The position numbers and the translations under genes were made by a program. Under the pieces are notes generated by a model that made no database searches, had not been told where the DNA came from, and saw nothing but the letters and a program-made list of their open reading frames with translations. This document shows, in pieces, positions 1 through 28,728 of a stretch of 28,728 nucleotides of DNA; positions within the stretch are counted from its first letter, which is position 1; each line of letters begins with the position of its first letter. Origin of the DNA: a virus. The DNA lies in IMG/VR virus record IMGVR_UViG_3300030382_000395, positions 626 through 29,353 of that record; one strand, 5' to 3'.

Positions 1-220
1 CCTTTCCAAATCTTACGCCAAGCCTAAAGGCATCAACTACTTGGTTGAATGTCATTTTACCAAATCGTCTTTCTCTAATTAAGTCCTGAGCAAATATCTT
101 ACTCAGACTAGCTAGACTTTTAGGGTCTGACTTGTGTCCTATTTCAACTGATGTCTTTGCTATCAAGTCTAATACTTTAGCTGTAAGCTCTTTTAAGTTT
201 TCTTGCTTAAGTGGTTTCAT
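1..220 (-). CDS. Partial protein of unknown function (3' end outside window)
   Basis: An open frame starts with ATG at 220 and stays open to the left edge, giving 73 residues beginning MKPLKQENLKELTAKVLD. The visible part is predicted helical and charged (a run LIRERRFGKMTF near residue 50) with no membrane segment. I do not recognise a family. The start overlaps the end of the upstream cysteine-rich gene by 14 nt, typical of the coupled genes here. It lies just after the left replication block, where the right-hand block has its DNA methyltransferase, so an early DNA-metabolism or packaging role is possible, but that is position only. Confidence 0.65.
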   Translation of the reverse strand, partial: MKPLKQENLKELTAKVLDLIAKTSVEIGHKSDPKSLASLSKIFAQDLIRERRFGKMTFNQVVDAFRLGVRFGK

Positions 221-419
221 AATAATTATTTAATTTTTTTTGGAATTCAATATCTTTTAAATCAGGTACTTGCTCAGGATTTTCTTCATCAAATGCTAAT
301 TGACATTCTTCACAACAAAATATTTCACCTTCATCTATATCTATATAAGCAAAACAATATAAACATTCATCATCTTCTACTGCTATTATTTCTTTTGGAT
401 ATAAAGGTATAACTTTCAT
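207..419 (-). CDS. Small cysteine-rich, probably zinc-binding protein
   Basis: A 70-residue protein with a CLYC pair near residue 20 and a CCEEC cluster near residue 35, a spacing that suits a small zinc knuckle. The rest is strongly acidic (DEENPEQVPD) with a charged C-terminus. Its ATG overlaps the TGA of the upstream replisome-organiser-like gene, so the two are probably translated together. Such small zinc proteins are common in phage early regions; no specific activity can be assigned. Confidence 0.7.
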   Translation of the reverse strand: MKVIPLYPKEIIAVEDDECLYCFAYIDIDEGEIFCCEECQLAFDEENPEQVPDLKDIEFQKKLNNYYETT

Positions 420-1018
420 AATAATTTTTTAGCTTCTTGCCAAGCATTGATTTGAGAGTCTAGCTTTGACATTGTTGGTTTTTTATATTCTCTTTTTTCC
501 CAAGTTACTATTGCTTGTTTCCAATTTTTCATTTTATTTTTACCAATGAACCAACCTTTAGATTCATAGAAACTAATAAAGGCTTCTGCATCTATATTAT
601 TCTTGCGTAAGATACAATAATTTTTAACTTCATCTAACTTAGGTTTTTTAAAGAGAGCCTTTTTATTACTATCTGTAAGATTAGTATTAGTTATAGTTAT
701 ATTAGTATTATCTGTATAAATTTTTAACTTAGGGTTGTCCACTAATTTAATTGACCTTGACTCAATTTCTCTACTACCTTGTCTATATTTTACCTCTCTA
801 ATTATAAACCCATTTTCTTCTAATATTTTTAGCCAATTTTGAATTGAAGACCTACTTACTTCATAAAGCCTACAGAAGTATTGAGTTGAAGCTGTACATT
901 TACCATTCATATTACATAGTGCTGTTATCTCTGCATAAAGAAGTTTAGAATTTGGTGTCAGCTTTTTGTTGTATCTAACCTCAGCAGGAATAACAGCATA
1001 GTAATTTGGTTTGGTCAT
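416..1018 (-). CDS. Replisome-organiser-like winged-helix protein (left copy)
   Basis: A 200-residue protein. Residues about 1-80 form a phage-replication HTH domain: KPNYYAVIPAEVRY at the start, then KLLYAEITALCN and SRSSIQNWLKILEENGFI, the recognition-helix region. A polar Asn/Thr-rich linker follows (about 100-115). The C-terminal part has a DnaT/DnaD-like helicase-loader look (FISFYESKGWFIGKNKMKNWKQA). Proteins of this layout bind phage origins and recruit the host helicase. It follows the DnaA-domain-IV gene with a 4-nt ATGA overlap. The homologue at 25431-26102 shares the N-terminal half almost exactly but differs in the C-terminus. The function is inferred from domain order and context. 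Confidence 0.75.
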   Translation of the reverse strand: MTKPNYYAVIPAEVRYNKKLTPNSKLLYAEITALCNMNGKCTASTQYFCRLYEVSRSSIQNWLKILEENGFIIREVKYRQGSREIESRSIKLVDNPKLKIYTDNTNITITNTNLTDSNKKALFKKPKLDEVKNYCILRKNNIDAEAFISFYESKGWFIGKNKMKNWKQAIVTWEKREYKKPTMSKLDSQINAWQEAKKLL

Positions 1019-1524
1019 ATGATCTTAATTGTGTAATGATAATTTCTGAGGGCTAACTTAACAATTTCTAATTGATTACTGAAGTCAAAGTAAGAAGTTT
1101 TTATTTTACATTTAACTTGACCACTCTTAACTTCTAATATTACTTCAGGCTTTAATGTTTCAACTACCTCATTTTTAAGCAGATAGCTCTTCATAAAATC
1201 ACCATCTATAAATACCTCTTTGACTCCATCTATGTCCTTATATGCTTTATAGACTTTATTAAAAGTATTTCTGTAAACTTCACAGTTTGCATAATTAGAC
1301 TTGTGAGTATTTTCATAGTGATAAATAAGAGTTCTATCTCTATTCAGAACCTTACCAATTATCTTTTGGTTTATATCTTCTTCAGTTCTTCCTATATATC
1401 CTGCTATTGCACGTGCAACCTGTAATGGTCGCTTTCTACTCTTTAAAGCAAGAGCATCATCAGGCAATCCTAATAGCTTTGTAGTAAGATTGCAGATATT
1501 TTTAAAGTTATATTCTTCTGTCAT
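1015..1524 (-). CDS. Stand-alone DnaA domain IV-like DNA-binding protein (left copy)
   Basis: A 169-residue protein. Residues about 25-75 match the C-terminal DNA-binding domain of the bacterial initiator DnaA: a basic start (KSRKRPLQVARAIAGYIGR), a middle helix, then NRDRTLIYHYENTHK, in the place of the DnaA signature GRDHTTVLHA. The AAA+ ATPase domain is absent. About 70 extra C-terminal residues, possibly beta-rich, are not part of DnaA but are conserved in the right-hand copy. The start codon overlaps the SSB stop (TAATG). A protein that binds DnaA-box-like sites without ATPase could direct origin recognition; the iteron block at 3566-3629 is its likely target (inference). Confidence 0.8.
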   Translation of the reverse strand: MTEEYNFKNICNLTTKLLGLPDDALALKSRKRPLQVARAIAGYIGRTEEDINQKIIGKVLNRDRTLIYHYENTHKSNYANCEVYRNTFNKVYKAYKDIDGVKEVFIDGDFMKSYLLKNEVVETLKPEVILEVKSGQVKCKIKTSYFDFSNQLEIVKLALRNYHYTIKII

Positions 1525-1835
1525 TAGAAGGGCATATCTTCATTAGCAGCTACTGTTTCTTCACCTAACTTAGCTATAAACCAACCATCAATATTATGGT
1601 AGTATCTTCCGTTGTATTCTCTTGAAGATAAGTTGATTGAAACACTAACTTCTGATCCTTCCTCAATATCTCTAAGACTTTTAATCTTATCACCAAAGAA
1701 ACTTATAACTACTTCTTTATTGTAGTCTGTTCCTGTTTGTTCTATCAAGATAGCTTGTTTTTCCCAAGACTTACCTGATTTACTAACTCCTTTTTCAGAG
1801 TCAAATTTCTGTACTAATTTTCCTATTATTTGCAT
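1524..1835 (-). CDS. Single-stranded DNA-binding OB-fold protein, DUF3127-like
   Basis: A 103-residue protein with the pattern of DUF3127 proteins of Bacteroidetes: GKLVQKFDSEKGVSKSGKSW, a middle EVVISFFGDKI strand, and the closing SREYNGRYYHNIDGWFI. This is the OB fold of an SSB analogue. It ends in an acidic tail, EDMPF, which resembles the DDIPF tip by which SSBs recruit partner proteins. It sits directly upstream of the DnaA-IV gene, with a TAATG junction, so it belongs to the replication block. It probably coats ssDNA during phage replication or recombination. Confidence 0.8.
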   Translation of the reverse strand: MQIIGKLVQKFDSEKGVSKSGKSWEKQAILIEQTGTDYNKEVVISFFGDKIKSLRDIEEGSEVSVSINLSSREYNGRYYHNIDGWFIAKLGEETVAANEDMPF

Positions 1836-1847
1836 TTTTTTTATTTA

Positions 1848-2240
1848 TTAATTATTACTCTTTTTAAAATCTTCTGCTTCATCTTCACCGAATACTCCAC
1901 CTAATTCATAGAACCCTGTGAGTTTTAGTACAGCTCTTGACATAGCTCGTTTCTCTGCCATCTCCATTACATACCAAGTGTTACAGTTACCATCTTTGAA
2001 TCCACCTTTTAAAGCTGATCCAAATGTTTGAATAAAAGCACCTTCTTTTCTTGCATTAGCTTTTACTACACAAAAATCCTTTTCGCAATTAATTACATCA
2101 TAGTCAATAGTGATTCCTTCTTGTGCTTGAATCTTGTCGATTCCAGATCTACATATTATAATGTAGTGTTGATGCTTAAAGACATCATCTTTTGTAAGGC
2201 TGTACTTAATGTACTTTTCCTTTAATACTTCTGTTTTCAT
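1848..2240 (-). CDS. Possible single-strand annealing / recombination protein
   Basis: A 130-residue protein. The C-terminal segment (about residues 90-122) reads YVMEMAEKRAMSRAVLKLTG then FGEDEAED, resembling the 'AE..A.gRAL...G....DeaED' segment common in Erf/Rad52-like single-strand annealing proteins. The N-terminal two-thirds is mixed alpha/beta with no other motif I recognise. It lies upstream of the SSB gene, the usual partner of annealing proteins in phage recombination modules. It is shorter than typical annealing proteins, so the assignment is tentative. No equivalent gene is seen in the right-hand block. Confidence 0.5.
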   Translation of the reverse strand: MKTEVLKEKYIKYSLTKDDVFKHQHYIIICRSGIDKIQAQEGITIDYDVINCEKDFCVVKANARKEGAFIQTFGSALKGGFKDGNCNTWYVMEMAEKRAMSRAVLKLTGFYELGGVFGEDEAEDFKKSNN

Positions 2241-2276
2241 ATATATTTCTTTATGTTAATAATTTGGTTAAAAATA

Positions 2277-2612
2277 CTATTTTAAATTTAATATCAAAGC
2301 TCTTTTATTTATTTTGTATGCTTCTTTGTATTGCTTGAGCTTTTTAGCAATTATTTTATTCTGTTCTTTATTGTAATGAAATGAGCCTGGCTTTTCAATC
2401 TCATAAGTATAACATTCATCAAGATTAAGTTTTGTCAAAGTACAGATGTCTTTAAAGGCTGCATCTATTTGTTTCTGAGTTCCAAATATTCTAACTGCTG
2501 TGCTGATCTGATGACAGTCATTATCAAAGCAGTATAATTGGCTATCCCATTTAGAAAATGATTTGTATTCTCCATTAGGATAAAAGTAGTAGTCTTCACA
2601 TTTTAATTTCAT
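2277..2612 (-). CDS. Hypothetical early protein
   Basis: A 111-residue protein with an aromatic N-terminus (YYFYPNGEYKSFSKWDSQLY), three cysteines in the first half, and a lysine-rich helical end (KIIAKKLKQYKEAYKINKR). It has no signal peptide or membrane segment. I do not recognise a family. It ends with TAG, which shows that amber is a working stop in this genome. It sits between the membrane-protein gene at 2759-3001 and the recombination/SSB genes. Confidence 0.65.
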   Translation of the reverse strand: MKLKCEDYYFYPNGEYKSFSKWDSQLYCFDNDCHQISTAVRIFGTQKQIDAAFKDICTLTKLNLDECYTYEIEKPGSFHYNKEQNKIIAKKLKQYKEAYKINKRALILNLK

Positions 2613-2623
2613 ATCTATTTTTT

Positions 2624-2737
2624 TTAAAAAAAGTAATAAGGTGCATATAGCTTGTTTTTACGTGGCTTTACAGTTACTGCAACCTATTTTTTAGGGAGCA
2701 AATTATGACCTTTCTAGCCATACTGCTTTATGCCCAT
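2624..2737 (-). pseudogene. Small reading frame interrupted by two amber codons, or noncoding element
   Basis: The 146-nt gap between two genes contains a 37-codon frame from ATG at 2737 to TAA at 2624. It would read as MGIKQYG, stop, KGHNLLPKK, stop, then 19 residues ending KNKLYAPYYFF. Both internal stops are TAG and the composition looks protein-like. Other genes here end in TAG (2277, 12290, 14593, 21351), so general amber recoding is unlikely. An imperfect inverted repeat (AAAAGTAATAAGGT type at 2630-2642, ACCTTATTTACTTT type at 2744-2757) brackets it, so a structured RNA or regulatory element is an alternative. Confidence 0.3.
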
Positions 2738-2758
2738 ACCACAACCTTATTTACTTTA

Positions 2759-3001
2759 TTAATAATTTAATTGTATGTGTAGCAATACTGAAGCTACTGT
2801 TAATATTATAAGAGCTGTGTATAATACATAAGACGGGATTCTGTCTATCAATCTCTTATCTGTGTTTTCTATTGTGTATTTTTTGTAGTCATTTTTGAAT
2901 ACAAATGTAGCTAGTTCTTGAGCATTCATAAACTGAACTGATTTAGTCAGCTTGTGAGTTACTTTGTAGTCTGCTCCTGTTGTAATGTTTAGTGTTTTCA
3001 T
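2759..3001 (-). CDS. Small protein with C-terminal membrane anchor
   Basis: An 80-residue protein: a soluble N-terminal part (MKTLNITTGADYKVTHKLTK) and one hydrophobic segment near the C-terminus (about residues 57-78, YVLYTALIILTVASVLLHIQ). The topology is that of a tail-anchored inner-membrane protein. The right-hand block has a protein of the same size, layout and relative position (27749-27985, including a similar run about a FVFKNDYKKY / FFKYLGDGKY segment), so this is a shared early gene. The function is unknown. It is preceded by the A-rich leader AATAACTAAAAAAAAG, which suggests efficient translation. Confidence 0.7.
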   Translation of the reverse strand: MKTLNITTGADYKVTHKLTKSVQFMNAQELATFVFKNDYKKYTIENTDKRLIDRIPSYVLYTALIILTVASVLLHIQLNY

Positions 3002-3025
3002 TTTCTTTTTTTTAGTTATTAAAAT

Positions 3026-3043
3026 GGGGGTTTTTACACCCCC
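3026..3043 (-). terminator. GC hairpin, probable terminator or attenuator
   Basis: On the minus strand the RNA would form a G5/C5 stem with loop TGTAAAAA, followed by ATTTTAATAAC. It lies just after the stop of the 59-residue gene (3050) and before the leader of the next gene. The T-tract is short, so it may only attenuate readthrough. The loop is almost the same as that of the hairpin at 10590-10609. Confidence 0.5.
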
Positions 3044-3049
3044 TGATTA

Positions 3050-3229
3050 TTATATAAGATTTACTTTTCTTTTCATTAGTTGCAACATAGACCACATTGT
3101 GTCAAATGATGTTGATTTCTTAACTCTCTTTATGTCTACATTAAAACCATAAACATCATTAAGAATTTCAAATTCTTTGTAAAGATTTCTCCAATCTTCT
3201 TTGTTTGAGTAAATTGTGTATTTTGACAT
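3050..3229 (-). CDS. Small hypothetical early protein (59 aa)
   Basis: An open frame from ATG at 3229 to TAA at 3050 encodes MSKYTIYSNKEDWRNLYKEF and 39 further residues, charged and probably helical, with a basic C-terminus (LMKRKVNLI). It is supported by an A-rich leader nearly identical to that of the next gene and by filling the gap between two genes exactly. I recognise no family. Confidence 0.6.
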   Translation of the reverse strand: MSKYTIYSNKEDWRNLYKEFEILNDVYGFNVDIKRVKKSTSFDTMWSMLQLMKRKVNLI

Positions 3230-3252
3230 TTTCTTTTTTTTTAGTTATTAAT

Positions 3253-3489
3253 TTATTTAAGTTCAATCTCATCAAACTCTACTTCTTCAAAAAGTTGTCT
3301 ATCGCTCATTTCTAAAATCTCTTCTAAGTAATCTCCGACTTTATGTAATGCTGTTTCAACTCCTATTCTTACTTGGCTTTCAACTGCTCCCTCATTACTA
3401 TCATAACAATCTTCTCTATAATCTTTTAGCCAATCCTTTAATACATTCAGCTGAAGTTGTGTTCGTTGTGCTTTGTTTTTTAATTCCAT
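3253..3489 (-). CDS. Small acidic helical protein, first gene of the left early operon
   Basis: A 78-residue protein: a basic, glutamine-rich start (MELKNKAQRTQLQLNVLKDW), then long helices with many acidic residues and an acidic end (EVEFDEIELK). No catalytic motif or membrane segment. It is the first gene after the origin-like region at 3490-3716, the position held on the right by the coiled-coil gene at 28004-28228, although sequence similarity between the two is not evident. An early regulator or host-takeover peptide is possible. Confidence 0.65.
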   Translation of the reverse strand: MELKNKAQRTQLQLNVLKDWLKDYREDCYDSNEGAVESQVRIGVETALHKVGDYLEEILEMSDRQLFEEVEFDEIELK

Positions 3490-3716
3490 TTTGTTTTATC
3501 CTTTAAATTAATTTTGTTTTATAGCGTTTTGTTTCGCTTTTAATACTGCAATAATACAAAGAGTTTTTGAATTAACTGACATATTAACAGAAGTATTTAC
3601 AAAGTTATTAACAATTTAAGTGTTAATAGTGGTTTGACTAGATAAGCGACTTTAGGTGCTGTCTAGTATATTAGTATAAAAAGTGCGAGAAAGTGCCTAA
3701 AAAGGCTAAAGGGGTA
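3490..3716. other. Intergenic origin-like region (left)
   Basis: About 230 nt without a convincing gene, separating the end of the lysis/metallophosphoesterase cassette from the first early gene. It holds the iteron block 3566-3629, a weak hairpin (GCCT-TTTT-AGGC on the minus strand near 3693-3704) that could end transcription from the metallophosphoesterase, and a short AT-rich leader before 3489. The only part clearly conserved with the matching right-hand region (28229-28430) is the iteron block. Confidence 0.55.
3566..3629. repeat. 12-bp iterons with DnaA-box-like 9-mers (left origin candidate)
   Basis: Four TTAAC-type cores lie exactly 12 bp apart within this 64-bp block (GAATTAACT, ATATTAACA, GTATTTACA, TTATTAACA), followed by one inverted copy (GTTAATA). 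The 9-mers resemble the DnaA box TTATNCACA with an altered centre. The block is 54/64 identical, without gaps, to 28285-28348; the cores are conserved and the spacers vary. A replication origin bound by the phage DnaA-IV protein is the simplest reading; an operator is the alternative. Confidence 0.6.
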
Positions 3717-3794
3717 CTATAAACTAAGCAATATTAGAGCTACTATAATAAGTAGATAGACTGCAAAGACTTGCCAAGTAATGTCTTTCTTCAT
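3717..3794 (-). CDS. 25-residue single-span membrane peptide
   Basis: A frame beginning with an ATG that overlaps the metallophosphoesterase stop (ATGA) encodes MKKDITWQVFAVYLLIIVAL plus five more hydrophobic residues, ending TAG. The layout is a short charged N-terminus and one complete transmembrane helix. Translational coupling and the clean hydrophobic pattern argue that it is made; its small size keeps this uncertain. It could be a holin/antiholin-like or phage membrane peptide. No equivalent follows the right-hand metallophosphoesterase. Confidence 0.45.
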   Translation of the reverse strand: MKKDITWQVFAVYLLIIVALILLSL

Positions 3795-4522
3795 AAGGGC
3801 ATTGGTTCTATTATAGGAAGCTGACCTGAATCTAAAATGACAGCACACCCTAAAACAGGTTTAGCAGTATGAAACTTAGCATATCCATAGGCAAAACTCT
3901 TATAGTCAATGCCACAAGGACACTGTAAGCCGAACCGTAAATCTGAAAGTGAAGCTGTATAGTCTATAAATGACTGAGTATGGATATGACCTTGTACCAT
4001 TGAAGTTCCCCAATTCTGAACACGCTTTATGATACCTTTACCACTACACCCTGTTCCATGAGTGTATAATACGTTATCATGTACAAATTGTTCTTCAAAT
4101 ATCCAATCAGGACAGCCAAGAACTTCATTAAGATTTCTGACAAATCTTTTATCTATTCCTGCTTCTTCTGATTTCCTTGCTATGATTAAATCATGATTTC
4201 CTAACGTTATGGTTGCATTTGGAAATGCTTCATACCATCCTTTGACTTGTTCAATAGCCATATCAAGCTCATATTTAGCTCCATGAGATTCCGTACTTGT
4301 AGAATGAAAACTTGAAAAATGTGAGTCTAAAATATCGCCCGTGAAACTGACCTCTGAACAATTATATTTGTTATAAATGGAAATGCAGTGCTGAAGATAA
4401 TTTTTATGCGTATAAGGTAAATGAACATCACCAACGATTAAACGATTAATCTTCTTGCTCCGCAAATCCTTTATAACTTGAACCTCGTGAGGCTTTAATC
4501 TGTATCTATTATTTTCTCGCAC
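3791..4522 (-). CDS. Calcineurin-like metallophosphoesterase
   Basis: A 243-residue protein carrying the full metal-binding set of the family in order: GDVH (about residue 32), GDILD (about 62), GNHD (about 108), YTHG (about 153) and GHIH (about 178). It should bind two metal ions and hydrolyse a phosphomono- or diester; the substrate is unknown. It overlaps the preceding small membrane-protein gene by 14 nt and is the last large gene of the late cassette, so a role at the end of infection (nucleotide, DNA or envelope processing) is plausible. The partial gene at 28430-28728 is a diverged homologue in the same place before the right origin-like region. Confidence 0.85.
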   Translation of the reverse strand: MRENNRYRLKPHEVQVIKDLRSKKINRLIVGDVHLPYTHKNYLQHCISIYNKYNCSEVSFTGDILDSHFSSFHSTSTESHGAKYELDMAIEQVKGWYEAFPNATITLGNHDLIIARKSEEAGIDKRFVRNLNEVLGCPDWIFEEQFVHDNVLYTHGTGCSGKGIIKRVQNWGTSMVQGHIHTQSFIDYTASLSDLRFGLQCPCGIDYKSFAYGYAKFHTAKPVLGCAVILDSGQLPIIEPMPL

Positions 4523-4691
4523 TATCAGCGATTCCTTGTCCTAATACTAAAGCAAGACAAGCATAAAATAGATTTGATGCAGTTGCTTCATCAACTCCTA
4601 AATAGGTAACTATTAAAGGAATAACGACACTACTTACTGCATACCAAAACTTCTTGGATTTGAACATTGTTAAAATAAGCCAATTTTTCAT
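4509..4691 (-). CDS. Small two-span membrane protein, holin-like
   Basis: A 60-residue protein with two hydrophobic segments (KFWYAVSSVVIPLIVTYLGV at about 14-33, and LFYACLALVLGQGIA at about 41-55), a basic N-terminus and a basic end (DSARK). The length and topology fit small class II-like holins or phage-tail-associated membrane proteins. It lies in the cassette with the DUF5675 protein and the metallophosphoesterase and overlaps the latter by 14 nt. An A-rich leader precedes it. Holin function is inferred from topology and position only. Confidence 0.6.
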   Translation of the reverse strand: MKNWLILTMFKSKKFWYAVSSVVIPLIVTYLGVDEATASNLFYACLALVLGQGIADSARK

Positions 4692-4714
4692 TTGTTTAAT
4701 TTTTTAAGTTATTA

Positions 4715-23564: not shown

Positions 23565-23948
23565 TTAGTTGTATTCATTTGGCAGCATTAGTCTGATACC
23601 TAGTTCTGTTAAAGCCCAAATCCTTATTTGGTCTGCATATACTTCAAAGTCCTTAGTGTTCATTCTTGCTGTGCTGTTTACTGTTTGAAGTCCTATCTGT
23701 TTATCGTTTATCTCTATGCTTTGCCATTCACTTGCAAACTTAACTTTGAGTGTATCGTGCATTTCGTCAGGAAAATATCCTAGCTCTTGACCTAATGGTT
23801 GTACTATACAAGCCCAATAGTAATTGTTCTGCATATTGCTTCTATTGTTTCTTTGTTTCTTTACGCTAACTATGTAATCACTATCAAGTTCTTTTAGGTA
23901 ATTAAAAAGACTCTGCTTATCTTGCTTGTTCTTTATTACAAAGTTCAA
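23565..23948 (-). CDS. NinB-like recombination protein
   Basis: A 127-residue protein with features of the NinB/Orf group: a basic run (VKKQRNNRSNMQNNYYWACI), then QELGYFPDEMHDTLKVKF and TARMNTKDFEVYADQIRIWA, ending LTELGIRLMLPNEYN. 'R..qQN.yyWa.i..pl', the 'e.H..lK..f' segment and 'sTa.mntkdf..yid.I..wA' agree with NinB-type proteins that bind ssDNA/SSB and help recombination. It overlaps the methyltransferase stop by 4 nt and lies at the end of the early block. Confidence 0.6.
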   Translation of the reverse strand: MNFVIKNKQDKQSLFNYLKELDSDYIVSVKKQRNNRSNMQNNYYWACIVQPLGQELGYFPDEMHDTLKVKFASEWQSIEINDKQIGLQTVNSTARMNTKDFEVYADQIRIWALTELGIRLMLPNEYN

Positions 23949-25447
23949 AATAATTCTTGTTGTGCTTCTGCTTGTTTCTTATCTTCTATTGCTTTATCTA
24001 TTCTTGCCTTTGCTATTTCGCAATAGTCTTTGTCTAAGTCTATCCCTACAAATTCAAACCCTTCTAAGGCACAAGCCTTCCCTGTTGAACCTGAACCCAT
24101 AAAGCAATCTAATACTATTCCGTTCTTAGGTGTTACAAGTCTTACTAAGTATTTCATTAAGTTAGTAGGTTTTACAGTTGGGTGGTGATTTTGCTTTTTA
24201 GTGTTAGTTCTGTTTCTAGGATTTTCTCCACCTTTACCATCTGCTATTTTGCGGTCTGCTTTTCTTTTATATTCAAAATCTTCTAATCCTTCATTCCTGT
24301 CTTGCTTACTTGCTTTTGCACAATAGAAAAATCTACTTGCTGAACCACTATCTCCTTTCATTTGTTTTTTTACACCTGATTGTTTCCCATATACATTTTT
24401 CCCACTTGTATTTGTATAAGGTATTGCGTTTGTGTCTCCTGTTTTCGTATAAGGAAACAAATCTTTTACCTCATCACTTCCATCGTGTATAAAGTTAGCA
24501 GGAAATCTGCCAACAGGAACTTCCCAAGATTTATTTGTATTTTTTTTATCATCAATATTCCCTACACCAAAATTGTTGCCCTTTGCTGATTTTCCATTAT
24601 ATCTATCACCTCTACTTGTATCATTTCCGACCCTACATCCATCTATATTAATACCACCTACTCCATTCTTTAATACATTATTAGCTACTGTTCCTTTAAA
24701 GGGTTTACGTGCCATTGTAATAGGCTCTAATGCAGGTTTTAATGCAGTACCCCACCCTTCCCATTGTTTTGCTTGTTCTGTTTTAGGAATACTTATATCT
24801 ACTTCTTCTGCTTTTCCTGATTTCCATTCTCCTTTACCGAAAGAAGTTCCAATTCCTGATGTTTTTTTGCCAATTACCTCTCTTTCTGCTTCAATTCTTT
24901 GTATTAGTAAATCAAACCTATTATCTAAATCAAACAGCACCTTTAATTTATTATAGTGTTCTTGTGTTGGTAGTTGTGTTCCTTTTGGTCTGCCTTCATA
25001 CCAAGAGTATAATGTAATCGTTCCAAGATAATTATCTACTTCGCTTTTTGTTATACCCTTATTCTCACGACTTTCTTTAAGGTATTTTGCCACTTTAAAA
25101 TTGTCCTCATATTTCCTACCATTTAGTTTATCAATGGCTTTACCTATATTATGACTTTTCGGAAAGCCACTACCATACACCCAAGCAATCATATCTCTTA
25201 TTTCAAATCCTGCATCTTCTATATTTACTGCCATTCTATGCTGAGTTCTTGTTCCTGCAAATGCTAACAAATATCCTCCTGGTTTTAATACCCTAAGAAC
25301 TTCTTCCCAAAGTTCTACAGTAGGAACATCGTAATCCCATTTTGAGCCCATAAACTCGATTCCGTAAGGGGGGTCAAGAACTACTGAATGAAAGTAGTTA
25401 TCAGGAAACTTCTTTAATTCTTCTAAGTTATTACCGTTTATTATCAT
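23945..25447 (-). CDS. DNA adenine-N6/cytosine-N4 methyltransferase with embedded HTH
   Basis: A 500-residue beta-class amino-methyltransferase: DPPYGIEFMGSKW (motif IV, residues 25-37) comes before the AdoMet site FMGSGSTG (motif I, about 449-456), with HHPTVKPTNLMKYLVRLVTP just ahead. Between them, residues about 118-178 look like an XRE-type HTH (AKYLKESRENKGITKSEVDN, then SWYEGRP) inserted in the recognition region, so target choice or autoregulation could involve it. There is no restriction enzyme nearby, so it probably protects phage DNA from host enzymes. It overlaps the preceding replisome-organiser gene by 17 nt. Confidence 0.85.
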   Translation of the reverse strand: MIINGNNLEELKKFPDNYFHSVVLDPPYGIEFMGSKWDYDVPTVELWEEVLRVLKPGGYLLAFAGTRTQHRMAVNIEDAGFEIRDMIAWVYGSGFPKSHNIGKAIDKLNGRKYEDNFKVAKYLKESRENKGITKSEVDNYLGTITLYSWYEGRPKGTQLPTQEHYNKLKVLFDLDNRFDLLIQRIEAEREVIGKKTSGIGTSFGKGEWKSGKAEEVDISIPKTEQAKQWEGWGTALKPALEPITMARKPFKGTVANNVLKNGVGGINIDGCRVGNDTSRGDRYNGKSAKGNNFGVGNIDDKKNTNKSWEVPVGRFPANFIHDGSDEVKDLFPYTKTGDTNAIPYTNTSGKNVYGKQSGVKKQMKGDSGSASRFFYCAKASKQDRNEGLEDFEYKRKADRKIADGKGGENPRNRTNTKKQNHHPTVKPTNLMKYLVRLVTPKNGIVLDCFMGSGSTGKACALEGFEFVGIDLDKDYCEIAKARIDKAIEDKKQAEAQQELF

Positions 25448-26102
25448 TTATTTTATCAATCATTTCTCTAGCTTTACTATATGTATCTAATTGAGCTTTT
25501 AATTTAGATGCTGGTCTTTTAGTATTCCATTTTTTAGTATTATTTTTCCATCTGATCATACGAGCTCTTAAATCCCAAGTGCGTTCAAGCTCGTATCTCA
25601 TCTTAGTTTTGCTCTTATTTTTTTCTGACCAATAGTTTAAAAAATCATTAGCCATTTCAACAGGCATTTGTAATTCTGCTGAAATTTCAGAAATTTCTGC
25701 TCCAAATTCCATTTTTTTAAATTCTACCCAAGTATGTTTATCTTTATTACTATATGTAATATTATTATTATTTATATTTATATTAGTATTATCTGTATAA
25801 ATATTTAGCTTAGGCTTATCTACCAAAGTAATAGACCTAGACAATATTTCTTTACTACCTTTTTTATATATAACATCTCTTTCAATATAGCCATGATTAT
25901 CTAATAGTCTTAGCCAATTTTGAATTGAAGCTCTGCTAACTTCATAGAGCTTACAGAAGTATTGAGTTGACGCTGTGCATTTACCATTCATATTACATAG
26001 AGCTGTTATTTCTGCATAAAGTAATTTTGCGTTAGGAGTTAAAGATTTATCATATCTTACACTAGCAGGAATAATAGCATAGTAATTAGGCTTTTCTTTC
26101 AT
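25431..26102 (-). CDS. Replisome-organiser-like winged-helix protein (right copy)
   Basis: A 223-residue homologue of the protein at 416-1018. The first half is almost the same (KLLYAEITALCNMNGKCTAS is identical), including the HTH and the IYTDNTNI linker. The second half is unrelated or strongly diverged (MPVEMANDFLNYWSEKNKSK, ELERTWDLRARMIRWKNNTK), resembling DnaT/DnaD-type helicase-loader ends. A shared origin-binding part with exchanged partner domains fits module swapping. It overlaps the DnaA-IV gene by 4 nt (ATGA) and the methyltransferase by 17 nt. Confidence 0.75.
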   Translation of the reverse strand: MKEKPNYYAIIPASVRYDKSLTPNAKLLYAEITALCNMNGKCTASTQYFCKLYEVSRASIQNWLRLLDNHGYIERDVIYKKGSKEILSRSITLVDKPKLNIYTDNTNININNNNITYSNKDKHTWVEFKKMEFGAEISEISAELQMPVEMANDFLNYWSEKNKSKTKMRYELERTWDLRARMIRWKNNTKKWNTKRPASKLKAQLDTYSKAREMIDKINDNKR

Positions 26103-26605
26103 AATATTTGCATTTCATATTTATAATCTCTAAGTGCAAACTTAACATTTTCTAATTGATTTGAAAAATCCATGTAAGAAGTTGATATAATTACTTCTAT
26201 TCTATCTGACTTAATAAGTATTTGAGCTTCATTTTTAGGGCTTTCTTTAACACCATTCTTTAACAGAAACTCTTTCATATAAAGTTTATCTACAAATACT
26301 TTCTTACTTTGTTCAATCTGCTTATAAGTCATATAAACTTTATTAAATACATCACGATATTTTTCCCAAGTATAATTACCCTGATGACATTTTTCATAAT
26401 GATAAATAGAAGCTCTATGCCTACTTAAAACTTCAGCAATAACACTATGATTAATTCCTTCTTCAGTTCTTCCTATTACTGCTGCTACCATTCTAGGTAT
26501 TTGTATTTTCTGCTTTCTACTTTTATCAGCAAGTGATCCTTTAGGCAATCCCATTACATTTGTAGTGAGGTTGCATATATGTATAAAGTTATCTTTTGAA
26601 GTCAT
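26099..26605 (-). CDS. Stand-alone DnaA domain IV-like protein (right copy)
   Basis: 168 residues from ATG at 26605 (MTSKDNFIHICNLTTNVMGL), which aligns with the start of the left copy. An upstream ATG at 26659 in the same frame would overlap the SSB-like gene by 53 nt and add residues with no match, so it is rejected. The DnaA-like HTH lies at about 28-80 (DKSRKQKIQIPRMVAAVIGR; SRHRASIYHYEKCHQ). The signature GRDHTTV is changed to SRHRASI here and NRDRTLI in the left copy. No ATPase domain. The shared C-terminal extension ends FSNQLENVKFALRDYKYEMQ. Probable binder of the iterons at 28285-28348. Confidence 0.8.
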   Translation of the reverse strand: MTSKDNFIHICNLTTNVMGLPKGSLADKSRKQKIQIPRMVAAVIGRTEEGINHSVIAEVLSRHRASIYHYEKCHQGNYTWEKYRDVFNKVYMTYKQIEQSKKVFVDKLYMKEFLLKNGVKESPKNEAQILIKSDRIEVIISTSYMDFSNQLENVKFALRDYKYEMQIL

Positions 26606-26606
26606 A

Positions 26607-27074
26607 TTAAAAAGGGAAATCGTCATTATCACCATTAAACATAGTATCTTTATTGTCAAGAATGTTCTTAGTATGTTTTTTATCTTCCATTACCCAAGCA
26701 ACAAATTCGTCAGCCACTTTTAAAATATCAGAAGTACTGCAATTACCACCACTACAATAATCTACTGCTGCCTTTAGGCTTGATTGTTTAACAATCATTT
26801 TTTGTACATTATCATTTTTTTTGTAACCACCTGAACCTAAATTACTTGAAAACTCAGGTTTTTTATATACAGGTTTTACTTTAGGAAATTTACCATTTAT
26901 AAATTCATATTCCATTTCTTGACCTTCTACAAATTTAGTTTGCTCCTGTGTCTTTGAAGAATATTCTCCTATTGAGCCATCTTCAAATTCTACTTCAAAC
27001 TTATACATTATACCATATTGTCCTTCCCAAGTTCCATTGGCTTGTACGCTTTTTACTGTGCTTGTTTTAATCAT
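26607..27074 (-). CDS. SSB-like OB-fold protein with acidic PF tail
   Basis: A 155-residue protein. Its N-terminal part (TVKSVQANGTWEGQYGIMYK, then FEVEFEDGSIGEYSS, and VEGQEMEYEFINGKFPKVKP) looks like an OB barrel. Residues about 100-130 form a helical segment (AAVDYCSGGNCSTSDILKVA), and the protein ends NGDNDDFPF, an SSB-type partner-binding tip. It is not clearly similar to the DUF3127-like protein at 1524-1835, but holds the same position just before the DnaA-IV gene (1-nt gap), so the two may be analogues. ssDNA-binding is inferred. Confidence 0.65.
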   Translation of the reverse strand: MIKTSTVKSVQANGTWEGQYGIMYKFEVEFEDGSIGEYSSKTQEQTKFVEGQEMEYEFINGKFPKVKPVYKKPEFSSNLGSGGYKKNDNVQKMIVKQSSLKAAVDYCSGGNCSTSDILKVADEFVAWVMEDKKHTKNILDNKDTMFNGDNDDFPF

Positions 27075-27075
27075 T

Positions 27076-27378
27076 TTATTTTGTTTTTATGTAGTTAATT
27101 AATTGTTCTTTTATATATTCTAATTGTTCTGTATCTATCCAATCTAAGAAGTTATAAGCATCAAAACAGATCTGAAAGTCTTTGCCATATTCATCTGTTC
27201 CTCTTAAATATACTTCGTTTTCGTGGGCTTGAAAAGTATTAATATCATTCATTCTTTTGTGTATCAATTCATCAGGTTCATCTGAAATTACTCCTGTGTA
27301 GGAGTGTTCTTCCAATTGAGAATCCGTAAATTGAGAATTGTTTTTTATTTGTGTTTCTTCTAAAGGTATTGGTATCAT
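27076..27378 (-). CDS. Hypothetical acidic early protein
   Basis: A 100-residue protein: acidic and polar N-terminal half (SQLEEHSYTGVISDEPDELI), then EVYLRGTDEYGKDFQICFDA and a helical end (WIDTEQLEYIKEQLINYIKT). No signal, membrane segment or catalytic motif. The ATG overlaps the preceding stop (ATGA), and the gene lies directly before the SSB-like gene, so it belongs to the replication operon. I recognise no family. Confidence 0.65.
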   Translation of the reverse strand: MIPIPLEETQIKNNSQFTDSQLEEHSYTGVISDEPDELIHKRMNDINTFQAHENEVYLRGTDEYGKDFQICFDAYNFLDWIDTEQLEYIKEQLINYIKTK

Positions 27379-27758
27379 ATTAAGTTTATTATTATTGGTT
27401 GAAGACTATTCTTCACATACAAATCTAAATATTCTTTTTTAACTTCTGCTTCCCATTCATCTTTTATTTGCCATCCATTCTGATCTGACATTTTACAAAA
27501 TAAATTATAAAGCTGTAGCTCTGTTCCTATTACTCTAACATCACGACCTACTGATTTGTAGTCAGAAATGTAACCACCTGATCTGCCTTTATTGTGCGAC
27601 CATACAGCACTTGCCTTCAACATAGGTTTTAGCCACCAATCCTGAGCTAGTATTACAGTATTATTTAAAGGTTTTTTAGTAAAGAAAGAAATCTTAGGCT
27701 TGTTATAATTATAACTATCTTCTTTCCAATCTTGATAATCAGCGTCTTTTATATCCAT
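27375..27758 (-). CDS. Hypothetical early protein
   Basis: A 127-residue protein rich in aromatic residues (ADYQDWKEDSYNYNKPKISF; LAQDWWLKPMLKASAVW), then GRSGGYISDYKSVGRDVRVI and a helical stretch LQLYNLFCKMSDQNGWQIKD. Mixed alpha/beta and soluble by appearance. It overlaps the membrane-protein gene by 10 nt upstream and the next gene by 4 nt. No family recognised; no homologue is visible in the left block. Confidence 0.65.
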   Translation of the reverse strand: MDIKDADYQDWKEDSYNYNKPKISFFTKKPLNNTVILAQDWWLKPMLKASAVWSHNKGRSGGYISDYKSVGRDVRVIGTELQLYNLFCKMSDQNGWQIKDEWEAEVKKEYLDLYVKNSLQPIIINLI

Positions 27759-27985
27759 TGCATTATAAGTTTAGTGATTAAAATTACTAAAGAGATCCCT
27801 ATTAAAGATATTACTAGTGTTACAATTATATCTTCTGCTGATGTGACTACACTTATTGCATAATCACTCCATTTATTATTGTACTTCCCATCTCCTAAGT
27901 ATTTAAAAAATGTTTGTAATTCGTCTGAATTAAATATTTGTTCTTTTCTTGATACTCGATTGATTACTTTAAATTGTCTTTTCAT
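27749..27985 (-). CDS. Small protein with C-terminal membrane anchor (right copy)
   Basis: A 78-residue protein: soluble N-terminal part (MKRQFKVINRVSRKEQIFNS) with DELQTFFKYLGDGKYNNKW and a C-terminal hydrophobic segment (about 52-76, DIIVTLVISLIGISLVILIT). The same size and topology as the protein at 2759-3001 and the same place in the block. The function is unknown; the conservation of topology in both blocks suggests a general need, for example attaching replication or takeover factors to the membrane. Confidence 0.7.
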   Translation of the reverse strand: MKRQFKVINRVSRKEQIFNSDELQTFFKYLGDGKYNNKWSDYAISVVTSAEDIIVTLVISLIGISLVILITKLIMQWI

Positions 27986-28003
27986 TTTATTTTAATTAAG
28001 TTA

Positions 28004-28228
28004 TTACCAATTAATTTTCTTCCAATTTTCAAATTCTTTTTTTAAGGCATTTATTTTCTTGTCAATTTCTTTTGTAATGCGTTCTTTGCCTTCTTCTAAA
28101 ATATTAATTCGTGCATTGTATTCATCCCTTTTGTCTATGTACGCTAAAAATTCAGGGGTTGGAATAATAGGGTCTAACTTTTGCATTTTATTTAATATGT
28201 TTTCGATATTTTTAGTATTAATTGCCAT
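28004..28228 (-). CDS. Small coiled-coil protein, first gene of right early operon
   Basis: A 74-residue protein: MAINTKNIENILNKMQKLDP, then PTPEFLAYIDKRDEYNARIN and a heptad-like basic/acidic helix (EGKERITKEIDKKINALKKE). No membrane or catalytic motif. It is the first gene after the origin-like region and lies about 30 nt downstream of the start site predicted for the promoter at 28268-28297. An early host-interaction or regulator protein is possible. Confidence 0.65.
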   Translation of the reverse strand: MAINTKNIENILNKMQKLDPIIPTPEFLAYIDKRDEYNARINILEEGKERITKEIDKKINALKKEFENWKKINW

Positions 28229-28267
28229 TTTCTTTGTTTATTTTTATTTTTTTTAATAATTATAGTG

Positions 28268-28297
28268 CAAACATACAACTAATATTTGAATTAACAA
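28268..28297 (-). promoter_or_regulatory. Bacteroidetes-type promoter of right early operon
   Basis: On the minus strand TTG (28297-28295), a 19-nt spacer and TATGTTTG (28275-28268) fit the Bacteroidetes consensus TTG-N19-TAnnTTTG. Transcription would begin near 28261, 33 nt ahead of the first early gene. The -33 element lies inside the iteron block, so binding of the iterons by the DnaA-IV protein could regulate it. No equally good match is seen at the left site. Confidence 0.6.
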
Positions 28298-28348
28298 CTA
28301 TATTAACACAATTATTTACAAAGTTATTAACAATTACTATGTTAATAG
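28285..28348. repeat. 12-bp iterons with DnaA-box-like 9-mers (right origin candidate)
   Basis: Same structure as 3566-3629: TTAAC-type cores at an exact 12-bp period (GAATTAACA, ATATTAACA, TTATTTACA, TTATTAACA) and one inverted GTTAATA. Ten differences in 64 positions from the left block, all in the spacers between cores. Confidence 0.6.
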
Positions 28349-28400
28349 AGAATTAAAGAGAAATAAGTAATACGATTAGTATTATTAACATATATACTAT

Positions 28401-28432
28401 AAAAATGCGTGTAGAAGCGTTTAGACGCATTA
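28401..28432 (-). terminator. Rho-independent terminator after right metallophosphoesterase
   Basis: The minus-strand stem AATGCGT/ACGCATT (28431-28425 with 28410-28404; 14-nt loop) runs into TTTTTATAG. It begins inside the stop codon (TAATGCGT) and would isolate the late operon from the early one. Confidence 0.7.
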
Positions 28433-28728
28433 TAAGGGCATTAAAAGATTAATAGGTAGTGTACCATTGTTTAGCACTACAGCAGCTCCTATAGCTTGTT
28501 TTTTAAAATTCTTTGCGTATGCTGCTGCATAAGTGGAAGAATCCACTCCGCAACCTACCTGCATTCCAAATACTCTAAAGCGTTTTCCAACGAACCACTT
28601 ACAATACGCTTCAGTATGAGTATGTCCACAAACGCTAGACATTAAATTGTTTTTTGCTTTGGTTTGAGCTTGACCGCCTTCTCCATGTTCATAAAGAACA
28701 TCATCATAAACTACTGATTCAACCCAAT
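28430..28728 (-). CDS. Metallophosphoesterase, C-terminal part (5' end outside window)
   Basis: The frame is open to the right edge and reads WVESVVYDDVLYEHGEGGQA and on to the stop at 28430. It contains LYEHG and GHTHT, the last two metal-binding motifs of calcineurin-like phosphoesterases. It aligns with the last 100 residues of the protein at 3791-4522 (VLYTHG, GHIHT, CGIDYKSFAYGYAK versus CGVDSSTYAAAYAK, and the shared end LPI..LMPL / LPI..PMPL). It therefore marks the end of another, related late cassette upstream of this unit. An internal ATG at 28642 is only a methionine codon. Confidence 0.85.
   Translation of the reverse strand, partial: WVESVVYDDVLYEHGEGGQAQTKAKNNLMSSVCGHTHTEAYCKWFVGKRFRVFGMQVGCGVDSSTYAAAYAKNFKKQAIGAAVVLNNGTLPINLLMPL

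Follow-up and report, generated by a model that had tools for sequence, protein, structure and literature searches.

What is the function of a 64-bp block of DnaA-box-like nonamers that stands in two noncoding gaps of one viral record, and which protein reads it? The stretch of DNA analysed (hereafter the window; 28,728 nucleotides) corresponds to bases 626–29353 of the 29,353-bp linear IMG/VR record IMGVR_UViG_3300030382_000395, and all of its recognisable genes read leftward. The two blocks and their nonamers are the following:

3566–3629, plus strand: array A, 64 bp, in a noncoding gap.
3569–3577 (GAATTAACT), 3581–3589 (ATATTAACA), 3593–3601 (GTATTTACA) and 3605–3613 (TTATTAACA), plus strand: direct nonamers of array A.
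3621–3629: inverted nonamer of array A, CTATTAACA on the minus strand.
28285–28348, plus strand: array B, 64 bp, in a noncoding gap.
28288–28296 (GAATTAACA), 28300–28308 (ATATTAACA), 28312–28320 (TTATTTACA) and 28324–28332 (TTATTAACA), plus strand: direct nonamers of array B.
28340–28348: inverted nonamer of array B.

The first-pass annotation had described one 64-bp block at two noncoding sites 24.7 kb apart, and both the coordinates and the cores were recovered as it gave them. The blocks are separated by 24,719 bp and are identical at 54 of 64 positions, with 5-bp cores starting at block positions 7, 19, 31 and 43 (an exact 12-bp period) and an inverted core at position 57. The ten differences, located at block positions 12–15, 25, 28 and 52–55, all avoid the five cores (hypergeometric P = 0.004). 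The assertion that every difference falls in the spacers thus holds for the 5-bp cores and fails for the 9-mers, which include positions 12 and 28. Conservation in the manner of protein-binding sites, also proposed at that stage, is supported. The arrangement of four TTWAC cores with a 12-bp period is present twice in the window, at arrays A and B, and in none of 100 dinucleotide-preserving shuffles of it; chance alone would not be expected to produce it, and the exact period ascribed to the DnaA-box-like nonamers is confirmed at both blocks. The block had no match in Rfam, and neither a sigma-70 promoter nor an intrinsic terminator was found at block A. To the right of array A, an imperfect stem (window 3634–3705) pairs ACTAGA with TCTAGT and TTTAGGTGC with GTGCCTAAA; a similar stem recurs in many relatives and is missing at array B, in L144 and in others.

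Each block had been placed ahead of an operon for a DnaA-IV-only protein, a single-stranded DNA-binding protein (SSB) and a replisome organiser. The first and the last of these are encoded on the minus strand in both modules, whereas the SSB was recognised in module A only, the candidate of module B (26607–27074) having no family match. The early genes that could be assigned are:

416–1018, minus strand: HTH_36 replisome organiser A.
1015–1524, minus strand: DnaA-IV protein A, 169 aa, with DnaA domain IV in residues 1–100 and a small α/β tail in residues 101–169.
1524–1835, minus strand: SSB-like protein A (DUF3127, SSB in PHROG).
25431–26102, minus strand: HTH_36 replisome organiser B; its gene holds a 21-bp tandem repeat (25744–25805).
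26099–26605, minus strand: DnaA-IV protein B, started at a conserved Met; the longest open reading frame extends to 26659.

The Pfam family Bac_DnaA_C matched protein A with an E-value of 2.8e-6 (below the curated cut-off) and protein B with one of 7e-4. Residues 1–100 of the AlphaFold model of protein A have a mean pLDDT of 90 and superpose on DnaA-box-bound DnaA domain IV with Z-scores of 15.6 (3pvp) and 14.7 (1j1v), the next unrelated fold scoring 5.3. The DnaA-IV protein is thereby predicted to possess the domain-IV fold of DnaA, with its DNA-binding helix-turn-helix. It is not a full-length DnaA, in which an AAA+ ATPase accompanies domain IV: its approximately 169 residues hold domain IV and a 69-residue tail, and neither the AAA+ nor any other DnaA domain. 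The tail is itself a conserved small α/β element that resembles PII-type folds only weakly (Z-scores under 4). To our knowledge, most stand-alone DnaA domain IV proteins carry no annotation beyond 'DnaA-like', and targets are known for few of them. The role of this domain without the rest of DnaA becomes directly testable here.

Outside the recognition helix, a simple pairwise comparison with domain IV of E. coli DnaA proved unreliable, and a profile alignment was used instead. It equates R30 and R38 with E. coli R399 and R407, arginines also shared with DnaA domain IV of 1j1v and 3pvp, and places R64 at the position of H434, a difference from DnaA. R38 and R64 are invariant, the latter being arginine in every sequence that covers the site, and R30 is arginine in 77 of 80 sequences; the D433 position is mostly D, and the T435 position is S, T or A. 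R399 of E. coli DnaA recognises the 5′ TTA through the minor groove, and TnCACA is recognised by the helix that starts at residue 434 (PMC5742627). The phage boxes keep TTA and ACA (TTAT and ACA are shared with the DnaA box TTATNCACA) and differ from DnaA boxes in their changed centre, their strict 12-bp period and their location on a promoter. We infer that this is what would be expected if DnaA-IV reads the phage boxes, and arginine in place of H434 is consistent with the changed centre and an altered specificity. Covariation between boxes and recognition helix, assessed by eye among modules that recombine, gave no clear pattern. The matched proteins and sites provide material for work on changes in the DnaA box code.

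Relatives of protein A are encoded in 62 viral contigs and relatives of protein B in seven. In those contigs that extend sufficiently, a similarly built array lies upstream of the DnaA-IV gene on the opposite strand, mostly at 1–2.5 kb. The search for the 12-bp period in related phages that had been suggested at the outset found the pattern in dozens of viral contigs, as two to four direct nonamers (consensus TTATTAACA), usually followed by an inverted one. Across 44 distinct loci, direct boxes 2–4 nearly always differ from TTATNCACA at one or two positions. Box 1 varies, and conservation of the inverted core is good; exact TTATTCACA is present in L138 and L163. Relatives that carry the gene and lack the block, named beforehand as the finding that would speak against the proposal, were looked for, and the apparent absences that were inspected all resolved, with two boxes in L163 and L130. 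A diverged array with TTATGAACA boxes is found in L158, and TTTTTCACG boxes occur in L164.

The converse scan used the DNA pattern alone, blind to genes. Most of its 120 collection hits were coding low-complexity repeats, rejected as chance 12-bp patterns; ten block-like contigs were chosen by eye from the sequence, prior to gene content. Seven of these carry a DnaA-IV gene on the expected side, and the other three end within 0.85 kb on that side, so that all seven informative contigs bear out the linkage to a DnaA-IV-only protein, compared with one weak match to the gene among 40 other pattern hits. Since box pairs are rare elsewhere in the genomes, the main target appears to lie ahead of the operon of DnaA-IV itself.

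Towards the early operon, the array is flanked by CAAANNTA; in the direction of that operon, this sequence reads TAnnTTTG. The -7 consensus of Bacteroidota is TANNTTTG (PMC6847099). In the window, the elements are:

28268–28275, minus strand: -7 element of early promoter B, TATGTTTG (CAAACATA on the plus strand), 23 bp from the proximal core.
3549–3556, minus strand: probable -7 element of early promoter A, TATTATTG (CAATAATA on the plus strand), with 23-bp spacing.

The promoter-proximal core and the -7 element are 22–25 bp apart in 44 of the 47 distinct loci that have two to four boxes, at a background rate for TAnnTTTG of 7.6e-4 per position. Four-, three- and two-box arrays keep this same distance to the proximal box, and only the number of boxes varies. 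When the same spacing test was applied to 471 other CAAANNTA sites, five were positive, some of which are probably duplicates of arrays already counted; duplicate copies exist in L146, L155 and L172, which repeat L145, L154 and L171. No exact -7 element was found in L150, L164 and L180. The -7 element of promoter A is imperfect, with one mismatch to TAnnTTTG. Both points count against control of the early promoter through the array. Approximately 12 of the 44 elements are TATGTTTG, the G of which is rare in F. johnsoniae promoters (PMC6847099). Compared with the housekeeping promoter of Bacteroidota (TTTG / TANNTTTG), TAnnTTTG is matched exactly at -7 in most relatives, whereas the -33 region is overlapped by the box array and shows no clear -33 element, which is often missing from F. 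johnsoniae promoters too (PMC6847099). With the G of TAnnTTTG set at -5, the proximal nonamer would cover approximately -25 to -33, and the array would reach to approximately -85. This predicted geometry is that of an operator or activator array, and the array is one half of a larger conserved unit, the other half of which, the predicted promoter, the first-pass annotation had overlooked.

The function that we consider probable, with a fair margin of doubt, is that of an operator array through which the DnaA-IV protein would control the early promoter. The two to four direct nonamers, usually joined by the inverted one, would act from just upstream of the leftward-reading -7 element, and their most likely binder would be DnaA-IV, a product of the early operon. 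Host RNA polymerase would begin early transcription before any DnaA-IV exists; as the protein can appear only once this promoter has been used, DnaA-IV could only modulate it later, and repression is for the same reason somewhat likelier than activation. As it accumulates, DnaA-IV would fill the array over the -33 region and shut down or reset the promoter. The simplest effect of a protein bound at -25 to -33 would be to exclude the sigma factor, resulting in autorepression, with an activator as the alternative. The array, the -7 element, their constant spacing, the linkage to the DnaA-IV gene and, in a model, the domain-IV fold are observed; we infer DnaA-IV as the binder, the effect of binding on transcription and the sign of that effect. 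A distance between the -7 element and the core that stays constant however many boxes there are argues in the first place for control of transcription. A phage-derived precedent for a DnaA-like domain at work in transcription is GafA, the regulator of the gene transfer agent RcGTA: its DnaA-like domain is needed for activation of the RcGTA promoters (PMC9638019). As in the phage protein, a DnaA-like DNA-binding domain is there detached from DnaA within a phage-derived system. When the descriptions are compared, GafA (42 kDa) adds regions for C-terminal DNA binding and for binding RNA-polymerase omega, whereas the phage protein, with 169 residues, is much shorter, and the part of that account considered here describes no 12-bp box array like that of the phage (PMC9638019). 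The promoter-control reading suggests how marine, probably flavobacterial, phages may time early transcription.

A different binder for the array, be it host DnaA, the HTH_36 organiser or another small early protein, strikes us as improbable. Organisers of other phages bind repeats, and the present one has an HTH domain. The array persists, however, where the organiser differs: a different protein (MKHLLSSSAFLV...) replaces it, with DnaA-IV kept, in L218 (5124–5762), L220 (4082–4792) and L228 (1342–1980), and the array is retained in the first two, which counts for DnaA-IV as the binder. Host DnaA also reads boxes of the TTATNCACA type (PMC5742627), but box 4 departs from that sequence at position 6 in 44 of 44 loci, which leaves it unsuited to host DnaA. 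As for the small early proteins, the first small genes of modules A and B had no match in the relatives compared.

The block had originally been put forward as a replication origin, and two further sites compete for that function. One is the tandem repeat of organiser gene B, which comprises three copies of a 21-bp AT-rich unit within an Asn-rich linker and is possibly an origin of the lambda kind, by analogy. The other is:

2254–2274, minus strand: second site, a pair of DnaA-box-like nonamers at a 12-bp interval, opposite in orientation to the array.

It precedes the start codon of the gene at 1848–2240, next to the stretch of lowest duplex stability in this region, and such a two-box site was found at 17 distinct loci including the window, fronting different genes. 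There are thus at least three origin candidates, none of which is singled out. For the block to be the origin, DnaA-IV on an iteron-like array would bend or open the AT-rich flank and the organiser would load the host helicase, overlap with the promoter being secondary; we regard this as unlikely. Like iteron-type origins such as ori-lambda, the array consists of short, evenly spaced direct repeats in the neighbourhood of replication genes. Replication genes sit in the early operon, the block, which is 73–84% AT and combines DnaA-box-like direct repeats with an inverted one, has soft DNA at or near it, and averaged detrended skew reaches its minimum near the early operon. As a putative origin, the array differs from those of the iteron type in lying outside the initiator or organiser gene and in being tied to a promoter. 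Third-position skew showed no consistent pattern in eight genomes, a test weakened by the one-way genes, and the block is soft but seldom softest: in several genomes the softest DNA lies approximately 0.9–1.4 kb away, often beside the second two-box site. The AAA+ domain of DnaA, which opens oriC, is absent from DnaA-IV. With the array fixed to the -7 element, a box number that falls to two, no origin signal in third-position skew and rival candidates at hand, the origin claim is not supported in its initial form.

Between these two readings, DnaA-IV on the array might both tune the early promoter and mark or activate an origin, coupling transcription to replication; we hold this to be possible but doubtful. 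All the evidence for promoter control would apply, together with the replication setting of the operon. The origin of phage lambda is activated by early transcription, and DnaA is both a transcription regulator and a replication initiator. An array of four to five boxes, one of them inverted, also resembles origins, which counts against an operator alone, and the same DnaA-IV/array complex may possibly serve replication too. Skew and duplex softness gave no direct evidence for the replication half, and we only tentatively entertain a detached DnaA domain turned dedicated phage regulator, with an altered box code, for which one promoter-anchored 12-bp array is at once early switch and origin. 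If true, a small ATPase-less protein would couple the two processes. This dual role was also counted under promoter control, so the likelihoods given to the readings overlap and do not sum to one.

The phages that bear the array are uncultured and marine, probably with flavobacterial hosts. No DnaA-IV relatives were found in cultured phages (tblastn against 50,697 phage records), and a pattern scan of GTDB genomes gave no match to the array. Papers on a phage DnaA-IV protein with a 12-bp array were not found in a search that covered few subscription journals. The single parts are of known kinds, and their combination, a DnaA-IV protein with a promoter-anchored array, represents a new variant: in dozens of viral contigs, a DnaA-IV family goes together with a conserved target site that sits on a defined promoter.

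The two blocks of the record had been described as one pattern conserved at both sites. The record has two early modules, one per end (window 1–4700 and 25431–28726), the DnaA-IV proteins of which are approximately 53% identical, and the late region between them is mostly closest to record G007. By comparison, each of the 25 related records tested (up to 30.9 kb, several of them evidently circularly permuted) has one DnaA-IV gene, so that blocks A and B probably represent a single locus in two allelic forms, contributed by two phages and joined in one contig. On the same count, two origins within one genome are unlikely. On the simplest reading, the population was mixed, and the assembly circled the genome once and ran into two alternative versions of the early module; a tandem, or a genome that truly has two modules, is possible. 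The right-hand gene order looks natural, since a methylase related to that at 23945–25447 is also encoded downstream of the DnaA-IV/organiser module in contig L228.
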